The notes below the pieces were generated by a model. That model ran no database searches and had not been told where the DNA came from. It was given only the letters and a program-made list of their open reading frames with translations. A DNA stretch of 64,000 bases from positions 1 to 64,000 of the forward strand of contig NZ_JANLCK010000003.1 in the NCBI RefSeq assembly GCF_024979315.1, given 5' to 3'. Every line of letters starts with the position of its first letter. Position 1 is the first letter of the stretch. Source of the stretch: Herbiconiux oxytropis (lineage in GTDB: Bacteria; Actinomycetota; Actinomycetes; Actinomycetales; Microbacteriaceae). The position numbers were made by a program, and so were the translations under genes. This document shows, piece after piece, positions 11,838 to 25,837 of this stretch.

Positions 11838-12399
11838 TCTTGCCTTTGCCCTTGTTCCCATTGCCGTTCCCGTTGCCGTTCCCGTTCCCATTCCCGTTGC
11901 CGTTGTTCCCGTTTCCGCTGTCGTCGTCCCCGCCGCCGTCGTCGCCCTCGTCGGGGTCGTCGGTGACGGGCTCGGGAACGGTCGGTTCAGGAGCGATGCT
12001 GGGCTCGACGGGCGTCTCGGGCTCGACGGGCGTCTCGGACTCGACGGGTGCCACCGGCTCGACAGGCGCCGCCGGTTGCACGGCGGCCTGCAGATCGGCC
12101 CGCACCGCGTCGATCGCGGCCTGGATGGAGGCCGTGCGGTCGGCGGGGATCGCACCGGAAGCCGATCCCTCCGTGAGCTGGGCCTGCAGGGAGTCGAGAG
12201 TGCCGAGTGCCCCGGCGGGATCCCCGGCGGCCGCCTGCTCGGCAGCCGTGACGACGCTCGACTGCAGCTGTTCGCTGGTGGCGGCGGCGATCCCGCTCGA
12301 GTCGGTGGCGCATCCGCTCAGACCGAGAACGGCGGCGAGAGCTGCGCCGAGGGCGAGCGTGACGGCCGCGCCGCGCACACGGGTCGAGACGGATGTCAC
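11830..12399 (-). CDS. Lipoprotein with Gly-Asn repeat tail
   Basis: About 189 residues. The signal peptide ends at lipobox LSGC (Cys30), a helical part follows (about 35-95), then repeated Pro-Val-Glu stretches, an acidic patch and a C-terminal tail of alternating Gly and Asn ending in lysines. The tail is encoded by short tandem repeats at roughly 11845-11925 and could vary by slippage. The GTG at 12399 overlaps the kinase stop (GTGA) and has GGAGG upstream. Its pairing with a membrane Ser/Thr kinase suggests a role at the envelope, but the function is unknown. Confidence 0.8.
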   Translation of the reverse strand: MTSVSTRVRGAAVTLALGAALAAVLGLSGCATDSSGIAAATSEQLQSSVVTAAEQAAAGDPAGALGTLDSLQAQLTEGSASGAIPADRTASIQAAIDAVRADLQAAVQPAAPVEPVAPVESETPVEPETPVEPSIAPEPTVPEPVTDDPDEGDDGGGDDDSGNGNNGNGNGNGNGNGNGNGNKGKGKND

Positions 12400-13637
12400 G
12401 GGCTCACCGCCTCCAGAAGATCGTTCATGTGGGTGCCGAGCGGCTCCTCGAGCGTGGGCAGGGTCGGCACGTCGTCCGGGCTCGCGGCACCGACCGACCA
12501 CAGGAGGACGCCCACGATGACGGCCACGACGACCACCGCGAGGACGGCGACGACGAGGAGCCACCGCGGAGGTCCCGACTGCGCGGCGAGGGACGCGACC
12601 GGAACCGGCGGCTCCGGATGCGACGCGTCGAGTCTCGCGGTGGCCGCGGTCGCCTCGGTGGCCTGCGCCGAAGTCGCAGCATCCACCGAAGTCGCAGCAC
12701 CCGCCGACACCGCAGCACCCGCCGACACCGCCGCATCCGCCTCCGGCATCCGCTCGGTCGGCAGCTCGAGCTGCGCTGTCGCATCGAGCGGGCTGGGCTC
12801 GCCGAGGTGGCGGGCGGCGACGACCACCTCGAGCGCCGAAGGGCGCTCGGCCGGGTCGCGAGCGGTCATGGCGGTCAAGAGCGATCGCCACGAGTACCCG
12901 TACGATCCAGGGATCTCGGGATCCCGCGTCAGGCGGGCGAGCGCGGCTTCGTGCGTGCCGGTCTGGGGGAACGCCCGCTGCCCGGTGAGGGCCTCGACGA
13001 GCACGAGCCCGAGTGCGTAGATGTCGGATGCGGGAGCCGGTTCGGCCCCCTGCACCTGCTCGGGGCTGAGGTAGGCGGCTGTGCCGATGAGCGTGCCCGG
13101 CGTGGTGAGCCTGGTGGAGTCGATGAGGTAGGCGATGCCGAAATCCGCGAGCTTGGCGCGGTATCGCTCGCCGGGCACGTGCGACCGTCGCAGGAGGATG
13201 TTCGAGGGCTTGATGTCGCGGTGCACCACCCCGGCGCCGTGCACCACGTGCAGCGCCTCGGCGAGGTCGCGGGCCATCACGGCCGCCTCCTCGGGCGTCA
13301 AGGGGCCCTCCACGATGCGATCCCGGAGAGTCGGTCCCTCGACGTGCTCCATGACGAGATAGTTCGGCTCGGTCTCGCCGATGCGGGCGTCGAACAGCGT
13401 CACGAGGGAGGAGTGGTTGAGACTCGCGAGCAGGCGCGTCTCCGAGGTGGTACGGGCCACCTCGGCGGCGGAGTCGCGGAAGATCTTCACCGCGACCGTG
13501 CGCCCGAGCGTCTCATCGCGAGCCCGGTAGACCACGCCCATGCCGCCGGATCCGATCCGCGAATCGAGCAGGTAGCGGCCGTCGAGGAGCTCGCCGGTGC
13601 TCGGCGAGCTCTCGGGCACGACGCCGGGCAGGGTCAC
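12396..13637 (-). CDS. Membrane serine/threonine protein kinase
   Basis: A 413-residue Hanks-type kinase. It shows the glycine loop GSGGMG (29-34), Lys51, the catalytic loop HRDIKPSN (139-146) and DFG (165-167), then activation and P+1 segments. After the kinase domain (to about 270) comes an Ala-rich juxtamembrane linker containing short repeats, a transmembrane helix (about 358-380), and an external tail of only about 30 residues without PASTA repeats. It therefore differs from PknB. It heads a four-gene group with a lipoprotein and an SRPBCC protein. Confidence 0.92.
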   Translation of the reverse strand: MTLPGVVPESSPSTGELLDGRYLLDSRIGSGGMGVVYRARDETLGRTVAVKIFRDSAAEVARTTSETRLLASLNHSSLVTLFDARIGETEPNYLVMEHVEGPTLRDRIVEGPLTPEEAAVMARDLAEALHVVHGAGVVHRDIKPSNILLRRSHVPGERYRAKLADFGIAYLIDSTRLTTPGTLIGTAAYLSPEQVQGAEPAPASDIYALGLVLVEALTGQRAFPQTGTHEAALARLTRDPEIPGSYGYSWRSLLTAMTARDPAERPSALEVVVAARHLGEPSPLDATAQLELPTERMPEADAAVSAGAAVSAGAATSVDAATSAQATEATAATARLDASHPEPPVPVASLAAQSGPPRWLLVVAVLAVVVVAVIVGVLLWSVGAASPDDVPTLPTLEEPLGTHMNDLLEAVSP

Positions 13638-13642
13638 GGCTC

Positions 13643-13903
13643 TCAGACCAGCGGGTCGTTGGTGTCGCGGGTGCTGCGGGTGACCTGCTCGCCGCTGGCC
13701 GGGTCGACGGCGGTGCGGGTGGTCGCCGTCGACTGGCGGCGACGGAGCATGAGCACGAGGCTGATCAGGAACACCACGACGCCGGCGCCCATGAGGATGT
13801 AACCGATGAGGGCGAGATCGATGACCCCGCCGAGGTCGACGTTGACTGCGAACGCCAGAATGGCTCCGATCACGAAAAGCGCGATCCCGGTTCCGATACC
13901 CAT
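13643..13903 (-). CDS. DUF6458 family small membrane protein
   Basis: About 86 residues. Two transmembrane helices (about 4-22 and 32-52) are followed by a basic and then polar tail. The opening MGIGTGIALFVIGAILAFAV matches the DUF6458 pattern common in Microbacteriaceae and relatives. I chose the ATG at 13903 because AGAGG lies just upstream and family members start there; a longer reading to 13957 exists. Its function is unknown. It lies 5 nt upstream of the kinase gene on the same strand. Confidence 0.8.
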   Translation of the reverse strand: MGIGTGIALFVIGAILAFAVNVDLGGVIDLALIGYILMGAGVVVFLISLVLMLRRRQSTATTRTAVDPASGEQVTRSTRDTNDPLV

Positions 13904-14001
13904 GATGATCCTCTCCGGGGTGAACGTCTCACCGCCGTGGCCGGCGCGGTCTGACAATCGGCTGATGATCAGTTCCCGGCCGTGCCGTCTCCGCTCATGC
14001 C

Positions 14002-14031
14002 TACCATGATTGAGTCAAGAACGATTGAGTC
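14002..14031. promoter_or_regulatory. Probable ArsR operator
   Basis: ATTGAGTC occurs twice, at 14009-14016 and 14024-14031. Across them reads TCAA-N6-TTGA, the form of inverted repeat bound by ArsR/SmtB proteins. A TACCAT -10 candidate (14002-14007) lies immediately upstream, so a bound repressor would cover the start of transcription of the arsR-arsC fusion gene. Confidence 0.6.
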
Positions 14032-14051
14032 GATTCCGGACGGGAGCCGCC

Positions 14052-14714
14052 ATGAGTGAGCTGAAACGCAGAGTCGCGGTCTTCGCCGCGCTCGCCGACC
14101 CCTCCCGGCTGCAGATCATCGACCTGCTCACGCTCGGAGATCTCGCGCCGTCCGAGATCGAGCTGCTGCTCGGCCTCAGGTCGAACCTCGTGGCCCACCA
14201 CCTCCGCGTGCTGGAGGAGGCGCAGATCGTCTCCCGCACCCGGTCGGAATCGGACAAGCGGCGCAGCTACCTCTCCCTGCAGCCGGAGGTGTTCGACACC
14301 CTCACGCCCGTCCACGTCGCCGTCCCGAAGCGGGTGGTGTTCGTGTGCACCGCGAATTCCGCGCGCTCCCAGCTCGCCGAGACCATCTGGCGCGAAGCCA
14401 GCGAGATTCCGGCCGCCTCGGCGGGAACGCATCCGGGGGCGGCGGTCAATCCGGGTGCGGTCGCTGTCGCCGAGCGTCACGGGCTCCGGATCGACCGGCA
14501 CGCGCGGCCGCTCGCCGTGGAGGAGGTGCTGCTCGAGCGCGACCTCGTCGTGACCGTCTGCGACAGCGCCCACGAGCGCATGACGGGCCGCGACGACCTG
14601 CACTGGTCGATCCCGGACCCGGCCCGCTCCGGCACCCCGGAGGCCTTCGAGCGCGCCTTCGACCTCATCAGCCGGCGCATCCGGGCTCTGACATCCCGGC
14701 TCCGCTCGGTCTGA
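14052..14714 (+). CDS. ArsR-ArsC fusion (regulator plus phosphatase-fold reductase)
   Basis: A 220-residue fusion. Residues 1 to about 85 form an ArsR winged helix (LADPSRLQIIDLL; LRSNLVAHHLRVLEEAQIV). Residues about 94-220 are a low-molecular-weight phosphatase / arsenate-reductase domain with a CX5R P-loop at Cys99-Arg105 (CTANSAR) and a DP acid motif at 189-190. The chosen ATG has GGGAG upstream; a TTG at 14010 falls in the operator and is rejected. A single protein would sense and reduce arsenate, or act as a phosphatase. No arsenite pump is adjacent. Confidence 0.88.
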   Translation: MSELKRRVAVFAALADPSRLQIIDLLTLGDLAPSEIELLLGLRSNLVAHHLRVLEEAQIVSRTRSESDKRRSYLSLQPEVFDTLTPVHVAVPKRVVFVCTANSARSQLAETIWREASEIPAASAGTHPGAAVNPGAVAVAERHGLRIDRHARPLAVEEVLLERDLVVTVCDSAHERMTGRDDLHWSIPDPARSGTPEAFERAFDLISRRIRALTSRLRSV

Positions 14715-14747: not shown

Positions 14748-15680
14748 TCAGGCGGGGTCGGGGAACCTCTCCCGCAGGAGCGCCGCGGTCTCGCCGACGA
14801 GCTCGATGCCGGCGGCGGGGGATGCGGAGGCGGGGATGAGTGTGAACTCACGCGCCCCTGCCTCCACGTACGGTGCGAGGAAGTCGGCGACATCCGCCGG
14901 TGTTCCCGACGCGGTCACCCACTGGAACTTCTCGTAGGGGAGCCGGTAGAGGTCGAACATCCGTGCGGCGATGTGCTCGCGGGCCGCATCGCGATCCGGA
15001 TCGAGCCCTACCCACGACGTGAAGCCCATGCGGGCAGGGGCCTGACGTCCGGCCTCGGCGGACGCCGCCGCGATGGCGTCGACGGTGGCCCCGAAGCGGC
15101 GGGCGGAGCAGAAGATGCCGAGCCAGCCGTCGCCGAAGCGCACGGTGCGCTGCACGGCTGCGTCGCCTTTTCCGCCGATCAGCATCGGGATGCGAGGGTC
15201 GGGGCTCGGCAGGATCTGCGCCTGATCGAGCTCGAAGAACTCTCCCGTGTGGTCGATGACGTCTCCCCGCAGGAGCCGCTGCACCAGGTCGAGCGCCTCG
15301 TCGAGCCGGCGACCCCGGGTGCGCGGGTCGACCCCGGCGTTGAAGACCTCACGACGATCCTCGCCGGCCACGCCGACGCCGAGCGTGAGCCGGCCTGGAG
15401 CGAGCTCGGCGAGAGTGGCGAGCGCCCTCGCGGTGGGCATGGGATGCCGGAGCCCCAGCAGGTACACGCCGATCTGCAGGCGCACCGAGGGGTGGGAGCC
15501 GAGCAGCACGGCCGACGAGATCAGGCCGTCGAAGCCCGATCCGCCATGGAAGCCCAGGTGATCCCCGGTCGACACGAAGTCGACGCCGCTCGTCTCGACC
15601 AGGTCGAGGAGTCGCCGCCGTTCGCCGAAATCGGAGAACACCCCGGGATCGTTGATCCCCACACCGACCGTGATTGCCAT
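14748..15680 (-). CDS. LLM-class flavin-dependent oxidoreductase
   Basis: A 310-residue member of the bacterial luciferase / F420-dependent oxidoreductase superfamily, recognisable from the TIM-barrel pattern VSTGDHLGF, LAELAPGRLTLGVGVAG and PMLIGGKGDAAV. These enzymes use FMN or F420; the cofactor cannot be assigned by eye. Its own leaderless-type promoter (TAGAAT 6 nt before the ATG) separates it from the long operon upstream, although the chemistry suggests it may act on the same kind of substrate. Confidence 0.85.
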   Translation of the reverse strand: MAITVGVGINDPGVFSDFGERRRLLDLVETSGVDFVSTGDHLGFHGGSGFDGLISSAVLLGSHPSVRLQIGVYLLGLRHPMPTARALATLAELAPGRLTLGVGVAGEDRREVFNAGVDPRTRGRRLDEALDLVQRLLRGDVIDHTGEFFELDQAQILPSPDPRIPMLIGGKGDAAVQRTVRFGDGWLGIFCSARRFGATVDAIAAASAEAGRQAPARMGFTSWVGLDPDRDAAREHIAARMFDLYRLPYEKFQWVTASGTPADVADFLAPYVEAGAREFTLIPASASPAAGIELVGETAALLRERFPDPA

Positions 15681-15728
15681 GGCTGGATTCTAGAAGACCG
15701 ACGCCGGCGTGCCACCCGGAGGCGGCCT

Positions 15729-16952
15729 TCACGCCGACTTCTCGCTGACCGCGACCGGCCCGGCGAGCACCCCCAGTTCCTCCGCGGCGATGATCCGGTA
15801 GGCCCCGTCACGCACCTGCGGGCTCCGATGACCCGCCGCCTGGCTCAGGTCGCGGTAGAGCTGGGCGAAGCGCTCGCCGTCGCGCAGAGCGCTCGAGCCG
15901 ATCGAGCGGGCGAGCTCCTGCTCCACGGCCTCCCACGACTGCAGATGCGCCTCCCGGGCCAGGGCGGCGAGACGGAAGTCGTCGGCGAACAGGAACGGCC
16001 GCGTGCCGGCTGCGTTCTCCCCCGCGAGGCGCATCCACTCCGAGGCCGTGTGCAGCACGGTCGCCCTGGCTGCTCCGATCCGCACCATGGCCGCGCCGTA
16101 CCAGCGCTGGTAGTCGGGGTCGGTGAGCCTCGGCTGGATGGGCGGCAGCGGTGTGCCACGCAGCCGCATCTGCTCGCCGAACTCGTCGAGCGCCGCGAAG
16201 GCACCGCCCACGGCCAGTCCGCCGAGCGTGAGGGTGAGCACGCTCATGGCGCGCCCCGCGTAGAGCGGGTTGCCGTGCAGCGCGAAGCCCGGGGTGCCCG
16301 ACTCCGCGGGGTAATCGTTGATCTCCACCCCCGGGAGCAGGTACGGCTCGGGGATCACGCCGCCGTCGAAGCGGATGCTGTTCGAGCCCGTGCCCCGCAG
16401 CCCGAGGGTCGCCCCCCAGTCGTCGAGCACCGTGAAGACCGCCCGCGGAGCCACGAACGTGCCTCCCCCGAGCCCCTCACCGGATTCCCCGACGAGCTTC
16501 GCCTGTCCGAGGTAGTAGGTGGAGTACGGCGATCCGGAGCAGTACGCCACGGTGCCCTCGAGCCGCCAGCCGCCTTCGACCCGCGTCGCGACGATCGATG
16601 GCGCGGCCGTGGCGGGTGCCCGGAAGTCGCCGCCGCCGAACACCTCGTCCTGCACCTCCTCCGGGAACATGGTGGCCACCTGCAGCGCGTGACTCGCCGA
16701 CAGCGTCCAGCACCATGCCGCCGCCATGTCACCACGGGCGAGCTCGGCAACCACCTCCACGAAGGTCGCGACGGAGACCTCGAGCCCGCCGTACCGCCGC
16801 GGGATGAACATGTCGTAGAAGCGCGCGTCGAGGAACGCCTGGTGCAGCTCGGGCGAGAAGTGCGTGCGCCGCTCCGTCTCGGGGGCCTCGGCCTTCAGCT
16901 GCGCGCGCAGGCTGCGGGCGGCGTCGACGAGTTCCGCTGGTGGGGGAGTCAT
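15729..16952 (-). CDS. Acyl-CoA-dehydrogenase-fold flavoprotein, copy 1
   Basis: A 407-residue protein with the N-terminal helical, middle beta and C-terminal helical layout of the acyl-CoA dehydrogenase superfamily. The absence of the usual C-terminal catalytic Glu region and the motif VLDDWG in the middle domain resemble flavin-dependent monooxygenases (HsaA/DszC-like, group D) more than true dehydrogenases. It would then need a flavin reductase, and none is seen nearby. It is the last gene of the eight-gene operon, overlapping the FAD oxidase by 4 nt. Confidence 0.82.
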   Translation of the reverse strand: MTPPPAELVDAARSLRAQLKAEAPETERRTHFSPELHQAFLDARFYDMFIPRRYGGLEVSVATFVEVVAELARGDMAAAWCWTLSASHALQVATMFPEEVQDEVFGGGDFRAPATAAPSIVATRVEGGWRLEGTVAYCSGSPYSTYYLGQAKLVGESGEGLGGGTFVAPRAVFTVLDDWGATLGLRGTGSNSIRFDGGVIPEPYLLPGVEINDYPAESGTPGFALHGNPLYAGRAMSVLTLTLGGLAVGGAFAALDEFGEQMRLRGTPLPPIQPRLTDPDYQRWYGAAMVRIGAARATVLHTASEWMRLAGENAAGTRPFLFADDFRLAALAREAHLQSWEAVEQELARSIGSSALRDGERFAQLYRDLSQAAGHRSPQVRDGAYRIIAAEELGVLAGPVAVSEKSA

Positions 16953-18511
16953 CGGTCGCGCCGCCCTGCCGGCCAGATGCCGTGCCGCCCCGGGGAGAGG
17001 ATGCCGTTGGGGTCGACGGCGTCCTTGATCCGCTCCACGAAACGGCGGTAGGCGTGGTCGCCGAAGGAGTACTGCTCCGAGGCCAGGTCCATGAAGTCGA
17101 TGTGGGCGCGGTACTCGCCGTAACCGAGCGCCGCCGTCTCCGTGATCATCGAGCGCACGACCTCGTAGGCCTGGGTCACGCTCGCCGGGTCGGTCGTGTC
17201 CATGTTGACCCCCGAGACGATGATGCAGCTGCGGTCGTTGATGGGGATGAGGCCGCCGGTGAAGTTCCGCCCGGTCCGCGTCTCCACGATGCCCTTCAGC
17301 AGGCTCACGACGGCGGTGACCTCGGCGCCGATCAGCGGCACGACGGGGCTGAAGCCGATGTGCCCGACCCCCTCGGGGATCGTGTCGAGCATCTCCAGGG
17401 TCGGGATGCCGGCCTGGATCTTGTCGGTGAAGTGCGTGATCTCATCCCACTCGTGCCGGAGGAAGGTGCGCTCGTGCTGCACCTGAGAGCCCTCGATCGC
17501 CGCCCACGCCCGGCTGATCCGATCCACCCCGTGCTGCACCACGGGGGAGTCGCCCCAGAGCGCCGTGCGCACGCCCCATCTCCCCACACCGGATTCGTCG
17601 GCGATGCGCTGCAGCTCCTCCTCGGGCATCGCGGCCTCCGCGCCGCGGAATTCCCCGAGCAGCTCGGGGAAGTGCGTCGAGAGGGTGATCGTGTTCTGGA
17701 TGACGGGCACACCCCGCACGATTCCGTCGAGCCGGAGGTCGCGCAGGATGTCGATCGCCTGACCGAGCTGCTCCTCGCGCGGCACGGTGAGGAACAGCGG
17801 CGCGTACGCCTCCGGGCGCCGCATGAGCCAGTAGCCCATGCGGGTGACGATGCCGAAGTTCGACTGGATGAACAGCGGGTCGAGCACGGGGCCGAGGCCC
17901 CGCTTGTAGACGTGCCACGACTTGCTCTCCGGCACCGCCCCCATGCCCGTGCGCAGCAGCGAACCGTCGGCGAGCACGACCTCCATGCCCGTGGGCGCCT
18001 GGAAGTCGGCGCCGAGCGGCAGGTAGGTGCCGCCCGAGTCGAGGGAGTTGCCCACCACCGATCCCCAGCCGATGTCGGGCACCGACACGAGCAGGTCCTC
18101 GTTGCCGGACTCCTTCAGTGCGGCGTGCAGATCCATCCAGCGCACCCCGGGCTCGACCACGGCGTAGGCCAGCTCCCGGTTGATCTCGAGCACCCGGTTC
18201 ATGCCCCGGAGGCTGATCAGCACCGAGCCGCGCACCCTCGGCGACGGCCCGCCGTACCCGTTGTTGCGGCCCTGCGAGTGGGTCCACAGCGGCACGCCGA
18301 GCTCGTTCGCGATGCGCACGATGCCCTGCACCTCCTCGGTGGTGGTGGGCAGCAGCACGGCGGAGGAGTCGTAGGTGCGGTCGTCGTGGTGCCAGTACGG
18401 ATCGCGGTACTGGTCGCGGCCTGCTTCATCGACCAGCACGCGCTCCGTGCCGAGCAGCTCCGTGAAGCGGGTGAGGGCCTCCTCGGGCAGGGTGAAGGCG
18501 GGTGAATCCAT
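16949..18511 (-). CDS. FAD-linked oxidase, vanillyl-alcohol/4-cresol oxidase type
   Basis: A 520-residue flavoprotein resembling eugenol oxidase, vanillyl-alcohol oxidase and the flavoprotein of 4-cresol dehydrogenase. It shows the FAD loop SQGRNNGYGG (79-88), GWGSVVGNSLD, and the C-terminal DPNGILSPGRHGIW. Family members oxidise para-substituted phenols. By eye the position that carries the FAD-linking His in eugenol oxidase is Arg427 here (NDRSC), so FAD may be bound non-covalently. Start ATG 18511 has GAGGAG upstream. It lies within the catabolic operon, 31 nt after acyl-CoA-dehydrogenase-fold copy 2. Confidence 0.85.
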   Translation of the reverse strand: MDSPAFTLPEEALTRFTELLGTERVLVDEAGRDQYRDPYWHHDDRTYDSSAVLLPTTTEEVQGIVRIANELGVPLWTHSQGRNNGYGGPSPRVRGSVLISLRGMNRVLEINRELAYAVVEPGVRWMDLHAALKESGNEDLLVSVPDIGWGSVVGNSLDSGGTYLPLGADFQAPTGMEVVLADGSLLRTGMGAVPESKSWHVYKRGLGPVLDPLFIQSNFGIVTRMGYWLMRRPEAYAPLFLTVPREEQLGQAIDILRDLRLDGIVRGVPVIQNTITLSTHFPELLGEFRGAEAAMPEEELQRIADESGVGRWGVRTALWGDSPVVQHGVDRISRAWAAIEGSQVQHERTFLRHEWDEITHFTDKIQAGIPTLEMLDTIPEGVGHIGFSPVVPLIGAEVTAVVSLLKGIVETRTGRNFTGGLIPINDRSCIIVSGVNMDTTDPASVTQAYEVVRSMITETAALGYGEYRAHIDFMDLASEQYSFGDHAYRRFVERIKDAVDPNGILSPGRHGIWPAGRRDR

Positions 18512-18542
18512 CAGTGGTCTCCTCGTGGTTTTCGGGTCAGGA

Positions 18543-19751
18543 TCACATCGTGAGCGGCCGGCCGAGCATGAAACGGGCGCTCGAGGCCAGGATCACGTCG
18601 AACTGCGACCCGATGTGGGTGCGGTACATGGCGGCGTCGCGGTAGTACTTCTCGAGCCGCGATCCGCTCGTCGAGTGCGACGCCGGGCCCGCAGTCGTGA
18701 AGGCGAGATCGATCGCGTCGCCGGCGAGGATCGCGGCCCGCACGAGCAGCAGGCGGATGCGCACGTCGTCGAGGGCGGTGTACGGGTCGCCGCCGGCAGC
18801 CCAGCGCTCCTTCCCCTCGGCCGAGAGCGCGATCGCGGTGGTGAAGAGGTGCTTGGCCGCCTCGGCATCCGAGAGGATGGTGCCGTACCAGCGCTGGTAG
18901 TCGGGCGAATCGGCTCTGGAGGAGGCGGACGGTTCGTTCACCAGCAGCCGCTCGTACTCGTCGAGGCACGCGAGCGCCGCCCCGACCTGGCTCGTCACGA
19001 GGCCCGCCATCGTGAAGGCCGCCACCCGGCCGAGGTACGTGGGGTCGCGGAGGAACCCGTAGCCGACGGACTCGGTGGTGCTGCCGTCGTCGGCCTTCCA
19101 GGCGTAGGGCACCACCCGGTGGCCGGGGATGAAGGCGCCTTCGACCTCGATCGAGTTGGAGCTCGAGGCGTGGAGGCCGATGGTGCGGTCGGCGCCCCAG
19201 TCGTCGAGCACGGTGTAGTCGGTGCGGGGAAGGATGAACATGAGGTCACGGCGGTGCCCCGAGGCGTCGGTGAAGGGCGCCACCGGCATGAAGTGGGAGC
19301 TCCACGTGCAGCCGGAGTTGTAGTCCCACCGGCCGGACAGCCGATATCCGCCCTCGACCTTCTCGACGGTCGACTTCAGGGCGAAGGCCCTAGAGGCGGC
19401 CACGAAGGGATACGTGGCGTAGATCTCGGTCTGCGCCTCCTCCGGGAAGTAGGAGGAGAACTGGTAGGCGTGGCTCGCTCCGAGCTCGAACGACCAGGCC
19501 ACGGCCGGATCGGCGCGGGCGATCTCGACGACCACATCGAAGAAGGTCTCGATCCCGAGCTGCAGCCCGCCGAAGCGCTCGGGCCGCAGGATGTCATAGA
19601 GCCGCGCCTCGGTGAACGCCTCGTGGATCTCCTCGGAGTACGAGCCGAGCTCCGCATGGGCGGGTTGCAGCTCTCGGAGGCGTGGTTGGAGCGCGCGGGC
19701 CCGCTCTACGAGCTCGCGGGCCGTCTCACGCTCGGTGGCAGTCCTGGTCAT
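18543..19751 (-). CDS. Acyl-CoA-dehydrogenase-fold flavoprotein, copy 2
   Basis: A 402-residue paralogue of the copies at 15729 and 21610. Shared blocks include ERFGGLQLGIETFF, GRWDYNSGC, TVLDDWGADRTIGLHASSSNS and YYRDAAMYRTHIG. As in the other copies, the pattern fits two-component flavin monooxygenases or related hydroxylases rather than beta-oxidation enzymes. The ATG at 19751 lies 1 nt after the stop of the alcohol dehydrogenase gene, with GAGAGG upstream; a reading back to 19832 is rejected because it overlaps that gene. Confidence 0.82.
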   Translation of the reverse strand: MTRTATERETARELVERARALQPRLRELQPAHAELGSYSEEIHEAFTEARLYDILRPERFGGLQLGIETFFDVVVEIARADPAVAWSFELGASHAYQFSSYFPEEAQTEIYATYPFVAASRAFALKSTVEKVEGGYRLSGRWDYNSGCTWSSHFMPVAPFTDASGHRRDLMFILPRTDYTVLDDWGADRTIGLHASSSNSIEVEGAFIPGHRVVPYAWKADDGSTTESVGYGFLRDPTYLGRVAAFTMAGLVTSQVGAALACLDEYERLLVNEPSASSRADSPDYQRWYGTILSDAEAAKHLFTTAIALSAEGKERWAAGGDPYTALDDVRIRLLLVRAAILAGDAIDLAFTTAGPASHSTSGSRLEKYYRDAAMYRTHIGSQFDVILASSARFMLGRPLTM

Positions 19752-19752
19752 C

Positions 19753-20874
19753 TCATTCGCCTCTCCCCGACAGGGCGGGCACGATGAGGCCGCAGACATC
19801 CGTGTGGTCGCGACTCGCCGCCAGCGCCGCATCCATGCCCTCGAGCGGATAGCGGGTGGTCACGATCGGCTCGGCCACGAGCCGCCCGCTCTCGAGCAGC
19901 GACACGAGCAGCGGGAGGTCGCGGCGCATGCGCGCGTTGCCGTTCTGCACACCGATGATGGTGCGGCCCTCGACCGACACGGCGGCCTGCGACAGGGTGA
20001 CCGTCGAACCGGCCTTCTTCACGCCCATCAGCACGACCGTGCCGGCCCGCCGGCTGTAGCCGAACGCCTCCGGCACCGCTTCGGGCGGCCCCGCCGCCTC
20101 GATCACGTGGTCTGCGCCGTGACCGCCCGTGAGTGAGAGCACCACGGCGCGGGCGGCGACGCCCGGGTCGAGCACGTGCGTGGCGCCGAGCTGGCCCGCG
20201 AGCTCGCGACGCGAGGCGATCGGGTCGATTCCGATGATCGTGGAGGCACCGGCCAGCCGTGCCGCCTGCACCGCCCAGAGCCCGACGTGCCCGAGGCCCA
20301 CGACCGCCACGGTGTCGCCAGGAGCGACCCTAGCGGCGTTCACGACGGCCCCGAACCCCGTGGTCACACCGCAGCCGAGCATGGCGATGTGCTCATCCGG
20401 CAGGTCGGAGTCGATCGGGAACACCTGAGTGGCGTGCACGTTCATCATCTCGGCGTAGCCGCCCACGAGGCCGGCCGCCTTGATGGCCGCGCCGTCGGCG
20501 CCGGTGGCGACCTGGAGGTAGCCGTCGCTCGTGGCCGAGACCCCCGGCCGGTCGAACAGCTCCGAGCACTGGTCCGGACGGCCTCGCGAGCAGAAGAAGC
20601 AGACACCGCACTCGGGCGTGCCCGGCACGACGACGCGCTGCCCCACCCGGATGCCCTCCACGCCTGCGCCGACGTCTTCGACGACGCCCATGCTCGCGTG
20701 GCCGAGGATGGCGGGCGGGACCTTGCCGAGTTCGCCGCGCCAGTTCGTGACGTCGGTGGAGCAGAACGGGCTCGCGCCGGTGCGCACGAGAACGCGCCCA
20801 GGGGCGGCGTCGAGGAAGGTCACCTCCTCGATCGAGAACGGGGCGTTGAACTCGCGGAGCACGGCGGCACGCAT
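19753..20874 (-). CDS. Zinc-dependent alcohol dehydrogenase
   Basis: A 373-residue medium-chain dehydrogenase. Catalytic zinc ligands are Cys38 (PFCSTD), His59 (ILGHASMG, with Ala where Glu is usual) and the Cys of LGCGVTTG. Four structural-zinc cysteines lie in PECGVCFFCSRGRPDQC. The NAD-binding VVGLGHVGLW follows. The size and the long loop fit the class III / aryl-alcohol dehydrogenase group. It sits mid-operon, its ATG overlapping the upstream stop (TGATG). It probably oxidises an alcohol intermediate of the pathway. Confidence 0.9.
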   Translation of the reverse strand: MRAAVLREFNAPFSIEEVTFLDAAPGRVLVRTGASPFCSTDVTNWRGELGKVPPAILGHASMGVVEDVGAGVEGIRVGQRVVVPGTPECGVCFFCSRGRPDQCSELFDRPGVSATSDGYLQVATGADGAAIKAAGLVGGYAEMMNVHATQVFPIDSDLPDEHIAMLGCGVTTGFGAVVNAARVAPGDTVAVVGLGHVGLWAVQAARLAGASTIIGIDPIASRRELAGQLGATHVLDPGVAARAVVLSLTGGHGADHVIEAAGPPEAVPEAFGYSRRAGTVVLMGVKKAGSTVTLSQAAVSVEGRTIIGVQNGNARMRRDLPLLVSLLESGRLVAEPIVTTRYPLEGMDAALAASRDHTDVCGLIVPALSGRGE

Positions 20875-21620
20875 CAGGAGGACCTCTTCTTCATCTCGTG
20901 GCGGAGCAGTGGGACCGCGACCTCGGCGCCGTGGAAGCCGATCAGGCTCGCGAGCTCGATCACCTCGAGCAGCTCGTCGGTCGTGGCGCCGAAGCCGAGG
21001 GCCCGGCGCAGGTGCATCTTCAGCCCGGAGGCGAACATGTGGGTGGCGGCGCTGTCGAACGCGATGTAGATGAACTCACGCACCTTAGGCTCGAGCGTCC
21101 CGGTGCGCCAGGGGTGCGACGAGAACTCGGTGAACGCCGCGAAGAACTCGGGGTCGAACTCGAGGACGTCGGTCCACATCTCGTCCCAGTAACCGCGGCC
21201 GGCCACGAACTCCTCGCGCAAGCGGGTCTGCAGCTCGGTCGGCTCGGCCGGCCCCGATCGGAGGCCCTCCTCGTCGAGGACCTCCCGGAGAAGGGGCACG
21301 GCTGTGAGCATGGCGTGCATACCGAGACCGGTCGTCAGCTCGATCGTCTCCATCACCTCGCCCGGAGTCGCCCCTTCGTGGAGGGCACCCGCGAGCTGCA
21401 GGCGAATGCCCGGCACATGCAGGTGGGTGGCGGCCGCGCTGAGGGCGAGCAGCACGAGCTCCTTCGTGGCCGGGTCGAGTGCCGACGACCCGTGCGGCAC
21501 CATCGAGAGGCGCGCGTAGCTCTCGAGATAGTCGGGGTCGAGCAGCAGGATGTCGTCCCACTCCCGCTGCCAGCGGCCGCGGAGTGCGGTGATCCTCTGC
21601 TTCGTCTCGTCAGAAGACAA
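20874..21620 (-). CDS. Double carboxymuconolactone-decarboxylase-like protein
   Basis: About 248 residues with two tandem AhpD/CMD-type repeats: LDPATKELVLLALSAAATHLHVPGIRLQL and LEPKVREFIYIAFDSAATHMFASG. Both repeats lack the CxxC of AhpD peroxidases and keep the His spacing seen in gamma-carboxymuconolactone decarboxylases, so a decarboxylase or lactone-handling role is more likely. The start is probably the TTG at 21620, with GGAGG 5 nt upstream, inside the end of the preceding gene (11-nt overlap). Confidence 0.8.
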   Translation of the reverse strand: MSSDETKQRITALRGRWQREWDDILLLDPDYLESYARLSMVPHGSSALDPATKELVLLALSAAATHLHVPGIRLQLAGALHEGATPGEVMETIELTTGLGMHAMLTAVPLLREVLDEEGLRSGPAEPTELQTRLREEFVAGRGYWDEMWTDVLEFDPEFFAAFTEFSSHPWRTGTLEPKVREFIYIAFDSAATHMFASGLKMHLRRALGFGATTDELLEVIELASLIGFHGAEVAVPLLRHEMKKRSS

Positions 21621-22845
21621 GGGGGCCTCCGAGGTAGTGCGCGGCGCTCGAGGCCGAGACCACGTCGAACTGGGTGGCGATGTGGGTGCGGTACATCGCG
21701 GCGTCGCGGTAGTACTTCTGCATGCGCGCTCCGCGCTTGGCCGAGGAGCTGCCCGCTGTGGCGAACGCCAGGTCGACGGCGCCGAGCGCGAGCTGCGCCG
21801 CCTGCAGCAGCACCGCGCGGATCCGTACGTCGTCGATCGTGCGGAACGGCCGGCCCTCGCTCGCCCAGAGCCGGCCGTACTCCTTGTGCTGACGCAGCGC
21901 CCCGAGGAACGTCGTCTCCGCGGCATCCGTCTTCGCCATGATCTCGCCGAACCAGCGGTGGTTCTCGGGGGCGTCGATCCGGGGCATCCGCGGCGGGTAG
22001 CTCTGCTTCTTCGTGCGCAGGAGGTGCTCGTACTCGTCCAGCGCTGCGTAGGCGTTGCCGATCTGGGTGCAGATGAGCTCGGCGTTGAAGTAGGTGAGTG
22101 TGCGCGCCAGGTAGAGCGGATCCCGGTGCAGCCGATAGCCCACCGTGCCGGGGTCGCCGGCCTCGAGGTCGCCGTCGCGGTAGTTGAACCGCGTCACGAA
22201 GCCGTCGGGCACGAACACGCGCTCGACCCGCACCGAGTTCGAGCCGGAGGCCCGCATGCCGAGCGTGCGGTCGCCGCCCCAGTCGTCGAGCACCGTGAAC
22301 TCCTCGCACGGCACGATCGCGAGAAGGGTCGCCCCGTCGACTCCGGTCTCCGGATCGCGGCCCACGCAGCCCAGGATCGCGTGCGTGGAGAAGGTGGAGC
22401 CCGAGCAGTAGTCCCAGGTGCCGTCGACCACGTAGCCGCCGTCGACCCGCTCGGCCGTGCCGGGTGGCGCGAGGCGCATGGGGGAGGTGAACGGGTCGGC
22501 GTCGTCGCCCTCGAGCAGCGTCCGCTGCGTGCTCTCCGGGAACCACGACGCGAGGTGCAGCGTGTGCCCGGCGCCGAGGATGAAGTTCCAGCCCACGCCG
22601 GCGTCTCCCCGCGAGATCTCGATACCCACCCGGAAGAAGGTCTCCAGGTCGTAGCCCAGCCCGCCGAAGGCGACGGGCTTGATGATGCGGTAGAAGTCGT
22701 TCTGCACGAACAGGCGGCGGATCGCCTCGGGGTAGCCGCCCTGCTGCTCTGCGGCCTCCTGCCCGTCGCGGAGCAGCTCCCGCATCGAGGCGGCCCGCTC
22801 GACGAGCTCGTCGGGTGTGGGTTCAGCGCGTGTCGGCTGGCTCAC
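21610..22845 (-). CDS. Acyl-CoA-dehydrogenase-fold flavoprotein, copy 3
   Basis: A 411-residue paralogue of the two other copies in this operon, closest to copy 2 (FGGLGYDLETFF; GTWDYCSGS; TVLDDWGGDRTLGMRASGSNS; KYYRDAAMYRTHIA). The GTG at 22845 overlaps the stop of the dehydroquinase-like gene (GTGA), which fixes the start; an upstream reading to 22980 is antisense-like in composition and rejected. Three diverged copies in one operon suggest successive hydroxylations or different substrates. Confidence 0.82.
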   Translation of the reverse strand: MSQPTRAEPTPDELVERAASMRELLRDGQEAAEQQGGYPEAIRRLFVQNDFYRIIKPVAFGGLGYDLETFFRVGIEISRGDAGVGWNFILGAGHTLHLASWFPESTQRTLLEGDDADPFTSPMRLAPPGTAERVDGGYVVDGTWDYCSGSTFSTHAILGCVGRDPETGVDGATLLAIVPCEEFTVLDDWGGDRTLGMRASGSNSVRVERVFVPDGFVTRFNYRDGDLEAGDPGTVGYRLHRDPLYLARTLTYFNAELICTQIGNAYAALDEYEHLLRTKKQSYPPRMPRIDAPENHRWFGEIMAKTDAAETTFLGALRQHKEYGRLWASEGRPFRTIDDVRIRAVLLQAAQLALGAVDLAFATAGSSSAKRGARMQKYYRDAAMYRTHIATQFDVVSASSAAHYLGGPLVF

Positions 22846-23384
22846 GAATGCGCCGCCTTCGCTCCGAGGAAGCCCTCGTCGTCGAGAGCGAGCGTGAGCG
22901 ACAGGATGGCCCCCACGTAGCTGTGTTCGCGGAGCCCCATCGAGACGCCGGTCGCGTAGGGCGTGAAGAGCGAGTCCCACGGCCCGACCGGCACGGCCCG
23001 GGGGTGGCCGGGGGCTGCCGTGACGTTGGCGAAGTGGATCTCGACGAACGGCTTGTAGGTCTCCACAAGCGCGTGGAGGGTCGCCATCCCGTTCACGGTG
23101 AGCCCCGCGGGATTGACGATGTAGGCATCCATCTCGTCGGCGGTCTCGTGCACGAACTCGAGGATGTCGCCCTCGTGGTTGGAGGAGAAGGTCACGATCT
23201 CGACCCCGAAGCGGGCGCCCACCTCCACGCAGAAGGCCTTGAGCTCGTCGAGCGTGCCGATCTCGCCGTAGACCGACTTGGTGCGCTTGCCCATGTTGCT
23301 CGTGTTGGGCCCCTCGATCAGCGCGATGCGGTGGCGCTTCGAGCTCGTGCGCGGGTAGACGGATGCGGATGCGGCGTCGGTCAT
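22842..23384 (-). CDS. Type II 3-dehydroquinate-dehydratase-like protein, altered active site
   Basis: A 180-residue flavodoxin-like protein related to AroQ. Conserved are GPNTSNMGKR with Arg34, VYG with Tyr39, SSNHEGD, Asn91 (VNPAGLT) and His117 (EIHFAN). The His that follows NxGGLT in true dehydroquinases is Val97, and the next substrate-binding loop is replaced by a longer Pro-rich one. It is therefore unlikely to act in the shikimate pathway and probably dehydrates or cyclises another ring compound. GGAGG precedes the ATG, and it overlaps both neighbours by 4 nt. Confidence 0.82.
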   Translation of the reverse strand: MTDAASASVYPRTSSKRHRIALIEGPNTSNMGKRTKSVYGEIGTLDELKAFCVEVGARFGVEIVTFSSNHEGDILEFVHETADEMDAYIVNPAGLTVNGMATLHALVETYKPFVEIHFANVTAAPGHPRAVPVGPWDSLFTPYATGVSMGLREHSYVGAILSLTLALDDEGFLGAKAAHS

Positions 23385-24421
23385 GGGTTCCTCCTGGGTT
23401 GCCGGGTGTCGGATTCGGGGGCGTGGGCCGTGGCCGGCGCGCCGATCAGCTCCTCGAGGGCGGCGAGCACGACATCGTCGACCTCGATCCAGCCGCGCGC
23501 CCGCCGCTCTGCCCGCACGGCGGCGGAGCGCTCGAAGGGCACCCGCACCGGTTGCGCGGGATCGAGCGGCCTGGTGCTCCTGATGAGCTCCGCGTACTCG
23601 CTCACCGACCGCCGGTAGGTCTCGGGATCGACGAACAGGTCGGGGCGGACGGCCAGCACGAAGAAGCCGAAGTCGCGCAGTTCGCCCGGCAGCACCGGAG
23701 AACCCGCGAGAGCTCCGAGCAGTTGCACGGCGATGCCGAGCCCCGAGCCGCGGTGGCCGCCCCAATTGACGAACGCCCCCTGAAGGGCCTCGAGCGGGTC
23801 GAGCGTCGGCGACCCGGAGGCGTCGTACGCCGAGCCCGCCGGCAGCTCGGTCCCGGTGCGGTGGGCGAGCACAGCCTGGGCGTGGATGATCTCCGAGATG
23901 CCGATGTCCCAGATCACGGGAACACCCTCGCCCGGGAATCCGAAGCAGATCGGGTTCGTGCCGAACCGGGCCTCGGTTCCACCGGTGGGCGCGACCCAGG
24001 GAGAGGCGTTCGAGGCGATCATCGCCACCATCCCCGCCGCCGTGATGCGCTCGGCGTAGTAGGAGAGCATCCCCGTGTACCAGGTGCGGTTCGCCCCGAC
24101 CGCGCCGATGCCGGTGCCTCGGGCCTTGTCGATCGCCGTGTCGGTCGCGGCGAGCGCCGTGAGGTAGCCGATGGTGTCGCCGCCGTCGAACTGCGCGGAG
24201 ACGGGTGACTCCCGCGTCACCCGCGGAGCTTCGGCTGGTCCATCAGCCGCGGCGAGCCGATCGCCGATGCTGAGGATGCGCGCGAGACCGCTGTATTCGA
24301 GACCGCGCAGCTCGCAGTCGAGCAGGTGGTCGGTGATGGTGCGGCTCGACCCGGAGTCGTAACCGAGCGCCTCGAGGGCGGCGACCGAGAGGGACTCGGC
24401 GTCCGTCAGGGTGATCCTCAT
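23381..24421 (-). CDS. Ldh-family (malate/L-lactate dehydrogenase 2) oxidoreductase
   Basis: A 346-residue NAD(P)-dependent oxidoreductase of the Ldh_2 family (YlbC/ComC/YiaK-like), which reduces 2-oxo acids or ketolactones. Motifs are GANRTWYTGMLSYYAERIT, GTNPICFGFP and the glycine-rich GGHRGSGLGIAVQLL. The ATG at 24421 has GAGGAG upstream; the longer reading runs through the promoter and is rejected. It is the first gene of the eight-gene catabolic operon, and a 22-bp palindrome lies 41 bp upstream. Confidence 0.88.
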   Translation of the reverse strand: MRITLTDAESLSVAALEALGYDSGSSRTITDHLLDCELRGLEYSGLARILSIGDRLAAADGPAEAPRVTRESPVSAQFDGGDTIGYLTALAATDTAIDKARGTGIGAVGANRTWYTGMLSYYAERITAAGMVAMIASNASPWVAPTGGTEARFGTNPICFGFPGEGVPVIWDIGISEIIHAQAVLAHRTGTELPAGSAYDASGSPTLDPLEALQGAFVNWGGHRGSGLGIAVQLLGALAGSPVLPGELRDFGFFVLAVRPDLFVDPETYRRSVSEYAELIRSTRPLDPAQPVRVPFERSAAVRAERRARGWIEVDDVVLAALEELIGAPATAHAPESDTRQPRRNP

Positions 24422-24461
24422 CGTCGCTCCTCGGCTCGCATCGTTGCGCTGTCCTCGGCAC

Positions 24462-24483
24462 ATTACATGAAATTTCACGTAAT
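24462..24483. promoter_or_regulatory. 22-bp palindromic operator
   Basis: ATTACATGAAATTTCACGTAAT is palindromic except for one symmetric mismatch pair. It lies between the divergent starts at 24421 (catabolic operon) and 24522 (metallo-beta-lactamase-fold gene). Its size and AT-rich centre suit a MarR- or GntR-type dimer. The nearest candidate regulator is the MarR gene ending at 25346; that link is inferred only from proximity. Confidence 0.7.
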
Positions 24484-24521
24484 TGGGATAGCATCGATCC
24501 CACGACGTCGAAGGAGATCCC

Positions 24522-25316
24522 GTGAGCAGAGCCCTGTCCCTCATCCAGGTGAAGTACGCCGAGCGCACCGCGATCAAGAGCCGGGTCTTCCACGAGTACG
24601 CGCAGCACGGCCTCCCCGACGGCGAGCTCGCGATGGACTACAACTACTGGATCGTCCGCGACGGCGAGACCGTCATCCTGCTCGACACCGGCTACGACGT
24701 CTCCGAGGCGGAGTGGCTGGGCGAGCGCGAGGTCACCGCGGTGCCCGAGACGCTCGACGTGCTCGGGATCGACCCGTCGCGGGTCTCACTCGTGGTGCTG
24801 AGCCACTACCACTTCGACCACATCGGCTGGCTGCGGCTCTTCCCGCACGCGCAGGTGGTGGCAGGCCGGGCCGAGGACGAGTTCTGGTTCGGCAAGCTCC
24901 GCACCGAGGAGGGCCTCGACGGCGAGTTCGTCGACCCCCGGCATCTGATCGAGGTGCAGAGAGCCCGTGATGAGGGCCGGCTCACGCTCATCGACGCGCC
25001 CACCGAGATCCATCCCGGCATCGTCGTGCACCCGGTCTCCGGCCACTGCCCGGGCCAGCTGCTCGCACTCGTCGACACGGCATCCGGGCCCAGGATCGTG
25101 GCGTCGGACGTCGCCCACTTCTACGAGCAGATCGAGCACGGCTGGACCTTCTTCGTGCACAGCGACCTCGACGACATGCGGCGATCGTTCGAGACCCTGA
25201 GGGATCTGGGTGCGCAGCACGGAGCCGAGATCATCCCGGGCCACGACGCCCGCGTGCGCGACCGGTACCCGGCGCTGCCCGGTGCGGCGGGGCGGTTCGC
25301 CAATCTGCTCGGGTGA
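24522..25316 (+). CDS. Metallo-beta-lactamase-fold hydrolase, lactonase-like
   Basis: A 264-residue hydrolase. The metal site is complete: HYHFDH (His95, His97, Asp99, His100), His175 (SGHCPGQ), Asp196 and His241 (PGHDA). The layout resembles N-acyl-homoserine-lactone lactonases (AiiA/AttM-like), and such enzymes also open other lactones. The GTG start has AAGGAG 6 nt upstream. It is divergent from the catabolic operon across a palindromic operator, so a role in opening a lactone intermediate of that pathway is the simplest reading. Confidence 0.87.
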   Translation: MSRALSLIQVKYAERTAIKSRVFHEYAQHGLPDGELAMDYNYWIVRDGETVILLDTGYDVSEAEWLGEREVTAVPETLDVLGIDPSRVSLVVLSHYHFDHIGWLRLFPHAQVVAGRAEDEFWFGKLRTEEGLDGEFVDPRHLIEVQRARDEGRLTLIDAPTEIHPGIVVHPVSGHCPGQLLALVDTASGPRIVASDVAHFYEQIEHGWTFFVHSDLDDMRRSFETLRDLGAQHGAEIIPGHDARVRDRYPALPGAAGRFANLLG

Positions 25317-25345: not shown

Positions 25346-25837
25346 TCAGGGCAGCCAGGGATGCGGGTCGTCCGGCCGCCAGCTCCGCAGCAGCGTCAGC
25401 ATGATCTCGCGGAGCTGATCCTGCTGCTCCCGGTCGAGCACGCGGAACACGAGATCCTGCACGGCGTCGCGGTTCGCAGGGCCCGCGACCGCGACCAGCT
25501 CGGATCCGGCCTCGGCGAGCACGGCGATGGTGGCCCGGCCGTCGTGCGGGGAGCGGGCGAGCGTCAGCAGCTCGGCCTTCTGCAGTCGGCGCACGGTGTG
25601 CGACATGCGGGAGAGCGAGGTGTGCGTCCTCCGCGCGAGGGCAGACAGCTCCTGCGACCCGTCGTCCGACTCGGCGAGCATGATCAGGATGCTGAGCTCG
25701 ATGTAGGTGATGCCGAAGGTGCGCTTCAGGAACTCGTCCATGCGAGGCGTGAGCCCCTGCGCCACCGACAGCAACGCGAACCAGGTCTGGCGCTCCGCCA
25801 GCTCGTTGCGCTCGCCGGGATTCGGATCGCCGCTCAC
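25346..25837 (-). CDS. MarR family transcriptional regulator
   Basis: A 163-residue protein with a central winged helix (QELSALARRTHTSLSRMSHTVRRLQKAELLTL, then DGRATIAVL as the wing) flanked by dimerisation helices. The GTG at 25837 follows a TAACCT box by 7 nt and lacks a Shine-Dalgarno, so it is likely leaderless. It converges on the lactonase-like gene. It is a candidate regulator of the 24462-24483 palindrome. Confidence 0.88.
   Translation of the reverse strand: MSGDPNPGERNELAERQTWFALLSVAQGLTPRMDEFLKRTFGITYIELSILIMLAESDDGSQELSALARRTHTSLSRMSHTVRRLQKAELLTLARSPHDGRATIAVLAEAGSELVAVAGPANRDAVQDLVFRVLDREQQDQLREIMLTLLRSWRPDDPHPWLP

Follow-up and report, generated by a model that had tools for sequence, protein, structure and literature searches.

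Among described systems, those closest to the locus reported here are the 4-phenol oxidases of the VAO family, represented by the 4-allylsyringol oxidase of S. cavernae (PDB; 9gov), the eugenol oxidase of R. jostii RHA1 (5fxd) and BpfA of Microbacterium sp. F2, the group-D flavin monooxygenases HsaA and HpaH (C2), and the type II 3-dehydroquinate dehydratase AroQ. In the 4-phenol-oxidising subfamily, two tyrosines, an arginine, the histidine that links flavin adenine dinucleotide (FAD) and an aspartate are called crucial in PMC12507022. We describe an operon of Herbiconiux oxytropis that combines relatives of all of these enzymes and lies within a 64,000-nucleotide stretch of DNA (the window; positions 1 to 64,000 of contig NZ_JANLCK010000003.1). 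The reading that we favor, at a probability of roughly 0.55, is that of an accessory operon for the catabolism of at least one para-substituted phenol, with the aromatic ring cleaved in trans. The candidate 4-phenol oxidase differs from 9gov, 5fxd and BpfA in its neighbors, which here are three group-D monooxygenases, an AroQ-like protein and a double-domain decarboxylase-family protein; no such operon around a 4-phenol oxidase was present in the regions or papers examined.

The operon runs on the minus strand from an ATG at 24421 to a stop codon ending at 15729, and its eight genes encode, in order, an Ldh_2-family protein, the AroQ-like protein, an acyl-CoA-dehydrogenase-fold flavoprotein (ACAD1), a double-domain carboxymuconolactone-decarboxylase-family protein (double CMD), a zinc-dependent alcohol dehydrogenase (Zn-ADH), a second flavoprotein (ACAD2), a VAO-type oxidase and a third flavoprotein (ACAD3). 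The original prediction had named these eight genes and their families, all of which were borne out by the Pfam and NCBIfam scans (Table 1). It had also described nearly all junctions as overlapping by 1-11 nt; with gene starts picked by frame and context the range was correct, but the overlaps numbered five of seven: 4 nt for Ldh_2/AroQ-like, 4 nt for AroQ-like/ACAD1, 11 nt for ACAD1/CMD (if the CMD gene starts at TTG 21620), 1 nt for CMD/ADH and 4 nt for VAO/ACAD3. The remaining two junctions are gaps of 1 nt (ADH/ACAD2) and 31 nt (ACAD2/VAO). This layout is that of a single transcription unit, and we infer one transcript from it. The limits first proposed for the cluster, 15729-24421, enclosed the eight genes and left out two neighbors, a gene for a luciferase-like (LLM) protein and a divergent gene for a metallo-beta-lactamase-fold (MBL) hydrolase. 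The products of these two, together with those of the operon, make up the ten proteins of positions 14748-25316 to which the family searches with Pfam and NCBIfam refer below.

The VAO-type protein found its best solved match in 9gov (E = 1.8e-110, residues 11-518) and aligned over a similar length with 5fxd (E = 2.6e-104, residues 11-515), which amounts to full-length similarity to the oxidase branch of the 4-phenol oxidases. Its residues Y86, D146, H384, Y467 and R468 are all identical in 9gov and lie within common motifs. By motif, we take Y86, Y467 and R468 to be the catalytic Tyr/Tyr/Arg, H384 the FAD-linking His and D146 the supporting Asp of BpfA, a protein that we could liken to ours by description only. 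With its catalytic motifs kept, the protein is a predicted 4-phenol oxidase. A relative with 59% identity is carried by a plasmid of Rhodococcus erythropolis, where the neighboring genes are annotated as a Rieske protein, a P450, an aminomethyltransferase, a dioxygenase and a maleylacetate reductase.

All three flavoproteins carry the Acyl-CoA_dh_2 domain and are nearest to HsaA and HpaH, for ACAD3 on the basis of Pfam and NCBIfam alone. HsaA and HpaH were the best models for each of them, and the HsaA model matched ACAD1, ACAD2 and ACAD3 at E = 1.8e-38, 6.2e-43 and 1.1e-31, respectively, with scores under the equivalog cut-offs in every case (110-147 of 450 bits for HsaA and 88-110 of 650 bits for HpaH). 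ACAD1 and ACAD2 also matched solved HsaA and HpaH structures, with ACAD1 aligned to 2rfq, 3afe and 2jbr and ACAD2 related to 2rfq and 2jbr; XiaF was likewise among the solved relatives of the ACAD proteins. Positions 120, 171 and 396 of C2 HpaH, which have catalytic roles, are occupied by His, Ser and His in ACAD1 (H94, S148, H388), which was aligned directly with 2jbr, and, as read through the alignment with ACAD1, in ACAD2 (H94, S146, H379) and ACAD3 (H88, S139, H375). The three proteins thus share with HsaA and HpaH (C2) the family and the His/Ser/His positions, but differ in their scores below the cut-offs, in a Met of ACAD1 at the position of Ser146 in C2 HpaH, and in the absence of a reductase gene from the operon. 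Because no HsaA or HpaH cut-off was reached, we regard ACAD1-3 as predicted group-D (HsaA/HpaH-like) flavin monooxygenases, and not as HsaA or HpaH proper. The flavin reductase domain PF01613 has 10 matches in the genome, and one of them (C31:124771) is some 0.7 kb away from a paralogue of the VAO-type gene.

For the Zn-ADH, the best solved match was benzyl alcohol dehydrogenase (1f8f; E = 5.1e-47), which fits a benzylic alcohol as substrate and is compatible with it without being proof; the best named model, NDMA-dependent alcohol dehydrogenase, scored 245.1 bits against a cut-off of 440. Three other proteins likewise scored below the cut-offs of named models. Ldh_2, with 2x06 as a solved relative, scored 151.9 of 500 bits with its nearest named model, L-sulfolactate dehydrogenase, and the double CMD, closest to 2q0t among solved structures (E = 7.7e-72), reached 23.6 of 155.7 bits with the PcaC (4-carboxymuconolactone decarboxylase) equivalog. 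The MBL protein stayed below the cut-offs for N-acyl homoserine lactonase and for 4-pyridoxolactonase, its best named model (61.1 of 325 bits).

The AroQ-like protein shares with AroQ the family and six catalytic core positions (Asn12, Arg19, Tyr24, Asn75, Glu99 and His101, in M. tuberculosis numbering, as for His81 and Ser103 below), but scored only 86.0 of the 169.85 bits of the AroQ equivalog cut-off. In a tree of 32 sequences (34 gathered, with two frames of one residue dropped) it formed a separate clade with eight relatives at a support of 0.996, apart from 23 comparison sequences, which are translated matches presumed to be AroQ. Five of the relatives come from plasmids of Shinella, Mesorhizobium and Pseudonocardia, one from Azospirillum agricola and two from a single sampled genome. 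At the substrate-binding positions of His81 and Ser103 the AroQ-like protein has Val and Ala, and the stretch after them is changed as well. Ser or Thr occupies the Ser103 site in 22 of the 23 comparison sequences and in none of the nine clade members; the contrast at the His81 site (His in 13/23 versus 0/9) is weaker, because 10 of the comparison sequences also lack this residue. The core varies within the clade: Arg19 and Tyr24 are missing from two of the nine sequences, Asn12 as well from one of the two, and another sequence has Phe in place of Tyr24. On the plasmids of Shinella (L040:4065-4550) and Mesorhizobium (L042:14458-14943) AroQ-like genes stand in tandem, and the first copy, without the Arg19/Tyr24 stretch, may be a non-catalytic partner. 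The relatives lie near a gene annotated as FAD-binding on three of three plasmids, near xanthine-dehydrogenase-type genes on two of three, and near a CMD gene in Shinella. The separate clade, the altered substrate-binding positions and this setting amid catabolic-type genes distinguish the group from AroQ, and its members likely act on a changed substrate.

The original prediction had noted the lack of a classical ring-cleavage dioxygenase and had expected an unusual route; the first statement held for the operon, but the second was weakened because a search confined to intradiol enzymes (PF00775) turned up two full-length dioxygenases in the genome, besides a third, partial match. At the C3 locus an ACAD1 paralogue (52%) is divergent from an FAD_binding_3 ring hydroxylase, which is followed by an intradiol dioxygenase. 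At the C1 locus the neighbors of an intradiol dioxygenase gene are an Fe-ADH and a luciferase-like gene, and PcaI- and PcaJ-type CoA-transferases, both over their cut-offs, are encoded within 10 kb. Intradiol dioxygenases and downstream-type genes are thus present in the genome, and the company of genes at C1 and C3 suggests a hydroxyquinol-maleylacetate-oxoadipate route; the type is read from the neighbors because the intradiol proteins fall short of the cut-offs for catechol and chlorocatechol enzymes. The simpler reading is cleavage in trans, in which the operon would be coupled to these distant dioxygenases. The third, partial PF00775 match (33.6 bits) lies inside a 342-aa frame (L080:8734-9762) whose start resembles a twin-arginine signal by eye.

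In the proposed pathway, the VAO-type oxidase would remove a hydride from the side-chain carbon adjacent to the ring to give a quinone methide, to which water would add to form a benzylic alcohol or a ketone, and the Zn-ADH would oxidise the benzylic alcohol. The three group-D monooxygenases, which would draw their reduced flavin from a reductase with its gene outside the operon, would place oxygen onto the ring or beside the ketone, toward a catechol- or hydroxyquinol-type substrate, the ring would be opened by an intradiol dioxygenase from another locus of the genome, and the resulting lactone and oxo-acid pieces would be handled by the MBL lactonase, the double CMD, the AroQ-like lyase and Ldh_2. 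Phenols with a side chain, as in lignin fragments, look like the substrates. Of the phenolic or alicyclic ring envisaged at the outset, the phenolic alternative is well supported by the 4-phenol oxidase motifs, the HsaA/HpaH-type residues and the resemblance of the Zn-ADH to benzyl alcohol dehydrogenase, and the alicyclic one found no specific support. Sequence comparison supports how the genes are arranged, which families they belong to, that catalytic motifs are kept, that the operon is accessory, that relatives of its genes lie on C31 and that the genome encodes dioxygenases and flavin reductases; we infer the substrate, the order of the steps and what the CMD, AroQ-like, Ldh_2, lactonase and LLM proteins catalyse.

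Several points weigh against catabolism of a para-substituted phenol with cleavage in trans. Five enzymes have no place on a definite step. No dioxygenase, transporter or flavin reductase family, and hence no partner reductase for the monooxygenases, was found among the ten proteins. The operon is linked to the C1 and C3 loci by function only, and the intradiol proteins encoded there scored below the NCBIfam catechol and chlorocatechol cut-offs. Finally, ACAD1 probably holds its substrate differently from C2 HpaH because of the Met at the Ser146 position.

Parts of the operon recur elsewhere. In the same genome, a stretch of about 33 kb (C31:92-125 kb) encodes two VAO paralogues (67-68%), a double CMD (46%), an MBL protein (35%) whose gene lies some 3 kb away from one of the VAO paralogues, ADH paralogues (51 and 53%), and paralogues of ACAD2 (56%) and ACAD3 (47%), along with two NAD-binding-2 oxidoreductases, a single CMD and the flavin-reductase gene; no AroQ-like or Ldh_2 match occurred in the C31 stretches compared. 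Beside a VAO paralogue there, an FAD_binding_4 protein (L049:11666-13048) scored 317 bits with the BagG/FevA2 (bagremycin/ferroverdin oxygenase) model, below its cut-off of 850, and a 401-aa frame with flavin-reductase and FCD domains (C31:124636-125841; L049:19636 to L050:841) is either a fusion of an unusual kind or a pair of genes taken for one. On the Agrobacterium vitis plasmids pRvVAR0630a and pAt, an ACAD gene is followed by a double CMD gene (27-38% for the CMD pieces, about 31% for ACAD1) and a Zn-ADH gene by an ACAD gene (37% and 34-37%), both in the order found here. Unlike our operon, the A. vitis stretches read had no AroQ-like, Ldh_2 or VAO match; pAt has VOC, alpha/beta-hydrolase and FAH genes, and pRvVAR0630a a dienelactone hydrolase. 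Acidiphilium pACRY02 and Sodalis pHS1 carry a double CMD gene (45-54%) 2-6 kb from a lactonase-type MBL gene (33-36%), together with a single CMD, NAD(P)-dependent oxidoreductases and cupins but no VAO or ACAD match. Because gene pairs recur in A. vitis, Acidiphilium and Sodalis, and related genes on C31, the operon seems to have been put together from modules that also serve in other settings. Of the three plasmids ranked highest for Ldh_2 relatives, two (54 and 51%; L053, L055) come from lichen-associated bacteria, which may be chance.

The alternative that survives best, although we consider it unlikely, is a ring opening without any dioxygenase, in which a group-D or luciferase-like monooxygenase would insert oxygen by a ring ketone or quinone, the MBL hydrolase would open the lactone, and the CMD, AroQ-like and Ldh_2 proteins would degrade the open chain, so that the operon would be self-contained. 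Such a route would suit an operon that has no dioxygenase yet encodes a CMD-type decarboxylase and a dehydratase-family protein beside a divergent lactonase-type gene, and the double CMD/MBL stretches of Acidiphilium and Sodalis are also without an annotated dioxygenase, in a gene table that is incomplete; it sits poorly with three flavoproteins that all resemble aromatic hydroxylases and with the intradiol dioxygenases of the genome, one of which is two genes from the ACAD1 paralogue. Doubtful, in our judgement, is the more specific proposal of self-contained flavin-dependent ring opening and lactone hydrolysis in which an AroQ-family enzyme would have taken on a new role as a lyase acting on an open-chain intermediate. 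No better placed is the idea that these are tailoring genes of secondary metabolism, or detoxification genes, and not genes for growth on a phenol. XiaF is among the solved relatives of the flavoproteins, ACAD3 relatives (40-45%) occur on Streptomyces plasmids, and group-D monooxygenases serve biosynthesis too (PMC6165268), but by Pfam none of the ten proteins belongs to a synthase, ligase or transporter family, and Ldh_2 and CMD relatives stand amid catabolic-type genes on several plasmids.

Less probable still is a diphenylmethane substrate such as bisphenol F, which the VAO-type oxidase would convert to a benzophenone, with Baeyer-Villiger oxygen insertion and cleavage of the ester to 4-hydroxybenzoate and hydroquinone. 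PMC12507022 describes BpfA, of the VAO family, as making 4,4'-dihydroxybenzophenone from bisphenol F and includes a Baeyer-Villiger step in the proposed pathway, but the term "gene cluster" is absent from its main text and BpfA itself is comparable by description only; moreover, no esterase family was matched by Pfam in the operon. For another lignin-type substrate, pinoresinol, the named enzymes are PinZ and PinU, of which PinU is related to lignostilbene dioxygenases (PMC12607616); the carotenoid/lignostilbene-oxygenase family was found by Pfam in none of the ten proteins, with no genome-wide search aimed at PinZ and PinU. Growth on quinate or shikimate, in which the AroQ-like protein would serve as a 3-dehydroquinate dehydratase of type II with its catalytic core kept, was rejected as very improbable, given the failure at the AroQ cut-off, the changes at and after Ser103 and His81, and a VAO-type oxidase and three aromatic hydroxylases that quinate would not need.

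The operon is accessory and rare among sampled relatives. Within the order, ACAD1 at E <= 1e-60 and the VAO-type protein at E <= 1e-110 were each found in 1 of 396 sampled genomes, and within the phylum ACAD1 at E <= 1e-75 was found in 1 of 396, in each case our own genome; the samples overlap and include it, scoring was limited to the best few candidates of each genome, and the strict cut-offs miss distant relatives. Among the matches listed for 299 genomes of the family, the AroQ-like protein had, besides its own, none above 41% identity, and in the genome collection it had one relative locus (59%), by a single-protein query that finds close relatives only. Plasmid searches covered six of the eight operon proteins (ADH and ACAD2 were left out, as were phage and E. 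coli collections) and matched 302 records for AroQ-like, 337 for ACAD1, 33 for CMD, 284 for ACAD3, 233 for VAO and 733 for Ldh_2, with the best place below 60% identity in every one. A comparison of all window proteins with 13 foreign regions (L039-L043 and L053-L060) at E <= 1e-6 showed no more than two of the ten families together in any region; three further regions (L064-L066) were read as annotation only, which L064 lacks. No second copy of the whole operon was found in the sampled genomes, the genome collection or the plasmid records, nor an identical cluster with an assigned pathway in the records examined. The literature matches listed, as titles and abstract openings, held no description of the cluster, which says little beyond those.

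An insertion site was sought in six same-genus genomes, with five kinase-side regions and one right-flank region compared. The left flank (12396-14714) was whole in three of the five regions (L090-L092) and was followed by other genes, none of them an operon gene above 40% identity; the right flank was matched in one of the six genomes, at another place. No clean empty insertion site was found among the six. The operon was probably acquired, and base composition gives no sign of this, with a GC content of about 71% that in the operon does not differ from the surroundings. Within the left flank, a gene at 14010-14714 encodes an ArsR-type helix-turn-helix fused to a low-molecular-weight phosphatase domain and, in three same-genus genomes, again lies near a gene judged kinase-like by eye.

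The start of the MBL gene lies 100 bp from that of Ldh_2, and this divergent gene may belong to the cluster. Whether the luciferase-like gene shares the operon transcript is uncertain; a weak promoter-like match precedes it (15715-15687; 0.4 expected by chance in the stretch), and a terminator scan gave one hit against 2.1 expected. The quality of the palindrome between the divergent starts is unremarkable because about 2.9 such palindromes are expected per 64 kb and one was found; its position suggests a candidate operator. A shared regulon is not indicated, because a genome-wide search that allowed up to 3 mismatches gave no second site (reversed control 0); a looser search of eight loci of the same genome gave 8 mismatches at best and no regulon.

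Table 1. Features of the operon and its neighborhood in the window.
Feature	Coordinates	Strand	Evidence
Ldh_2-family NAD(P) oxidoreductase, first operon gene	24421..23381 (23381..24421)	-	PF02615 3.1e-78, scanned with longer frame
AroQ-like protein (type II dehydroquinase family), 180 aa	22842..23384	-	PF01220 1.5e-26, scanned with longer frame
ACAD1, predicted group-D flavin monooxygenase, HsaA/HpaH type, GTG start	21610..22845	-	PF08028 4.5e-16
Double-domain carboxymuconolactone-decarboxylase-family protein, TTG start	20874..21620	-	two PF02627 stretches
Zn-dependent alcohol dehydrogenase	19753..20874	-	PF00107 + PF08240
ACAD2, predicted group-D flavin monooxygenase	18543..19751	-	PF08028 1.6e-9
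VAO/eugenol-oxidase-type predicted 4-phenol oxidase	16949..18511	-	PF01565 7.2e-22
ACAD3, predicted group-D flavin monooxygenase	15729..16952	-	PF02771 1.8e-7 + PF08028 1.4e-6
Luciferase-like (LLM) protein, 48 nt downstream of operon	14748..15680	-	PF00296 2.1e-43
Metallo-beta-lactamase-fold (MBL) hydrolase, lactonase type, divergent	24522..25316	+	PF00753 1.3e-16
Near-perfect 22-bp palindrome between divergent starts, candidate operator	24462..24483	.	10/11 pairs
MarR-family gene beside cluster, candidate regulator only	25346..25837	-	PF12802 3.3e-11

Taken together, known kinds of enzyme, a 4-phenol oxidase and group-D monooxygenases, are combined here in a set that was not found in the records examined. 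The analysis also brings to light an AroQ-family clade that stands amid catabolic-type genes in several lineages and for which we know of no reaction. A route that opened the ring by flavin-dependent oxygen insertion, with no dioxygenase involved, would be of genuine interest if true. The identity of the substrate would give the AroQ-like clade a function and would add a new entry to the catabolism of lignin-type phenols.

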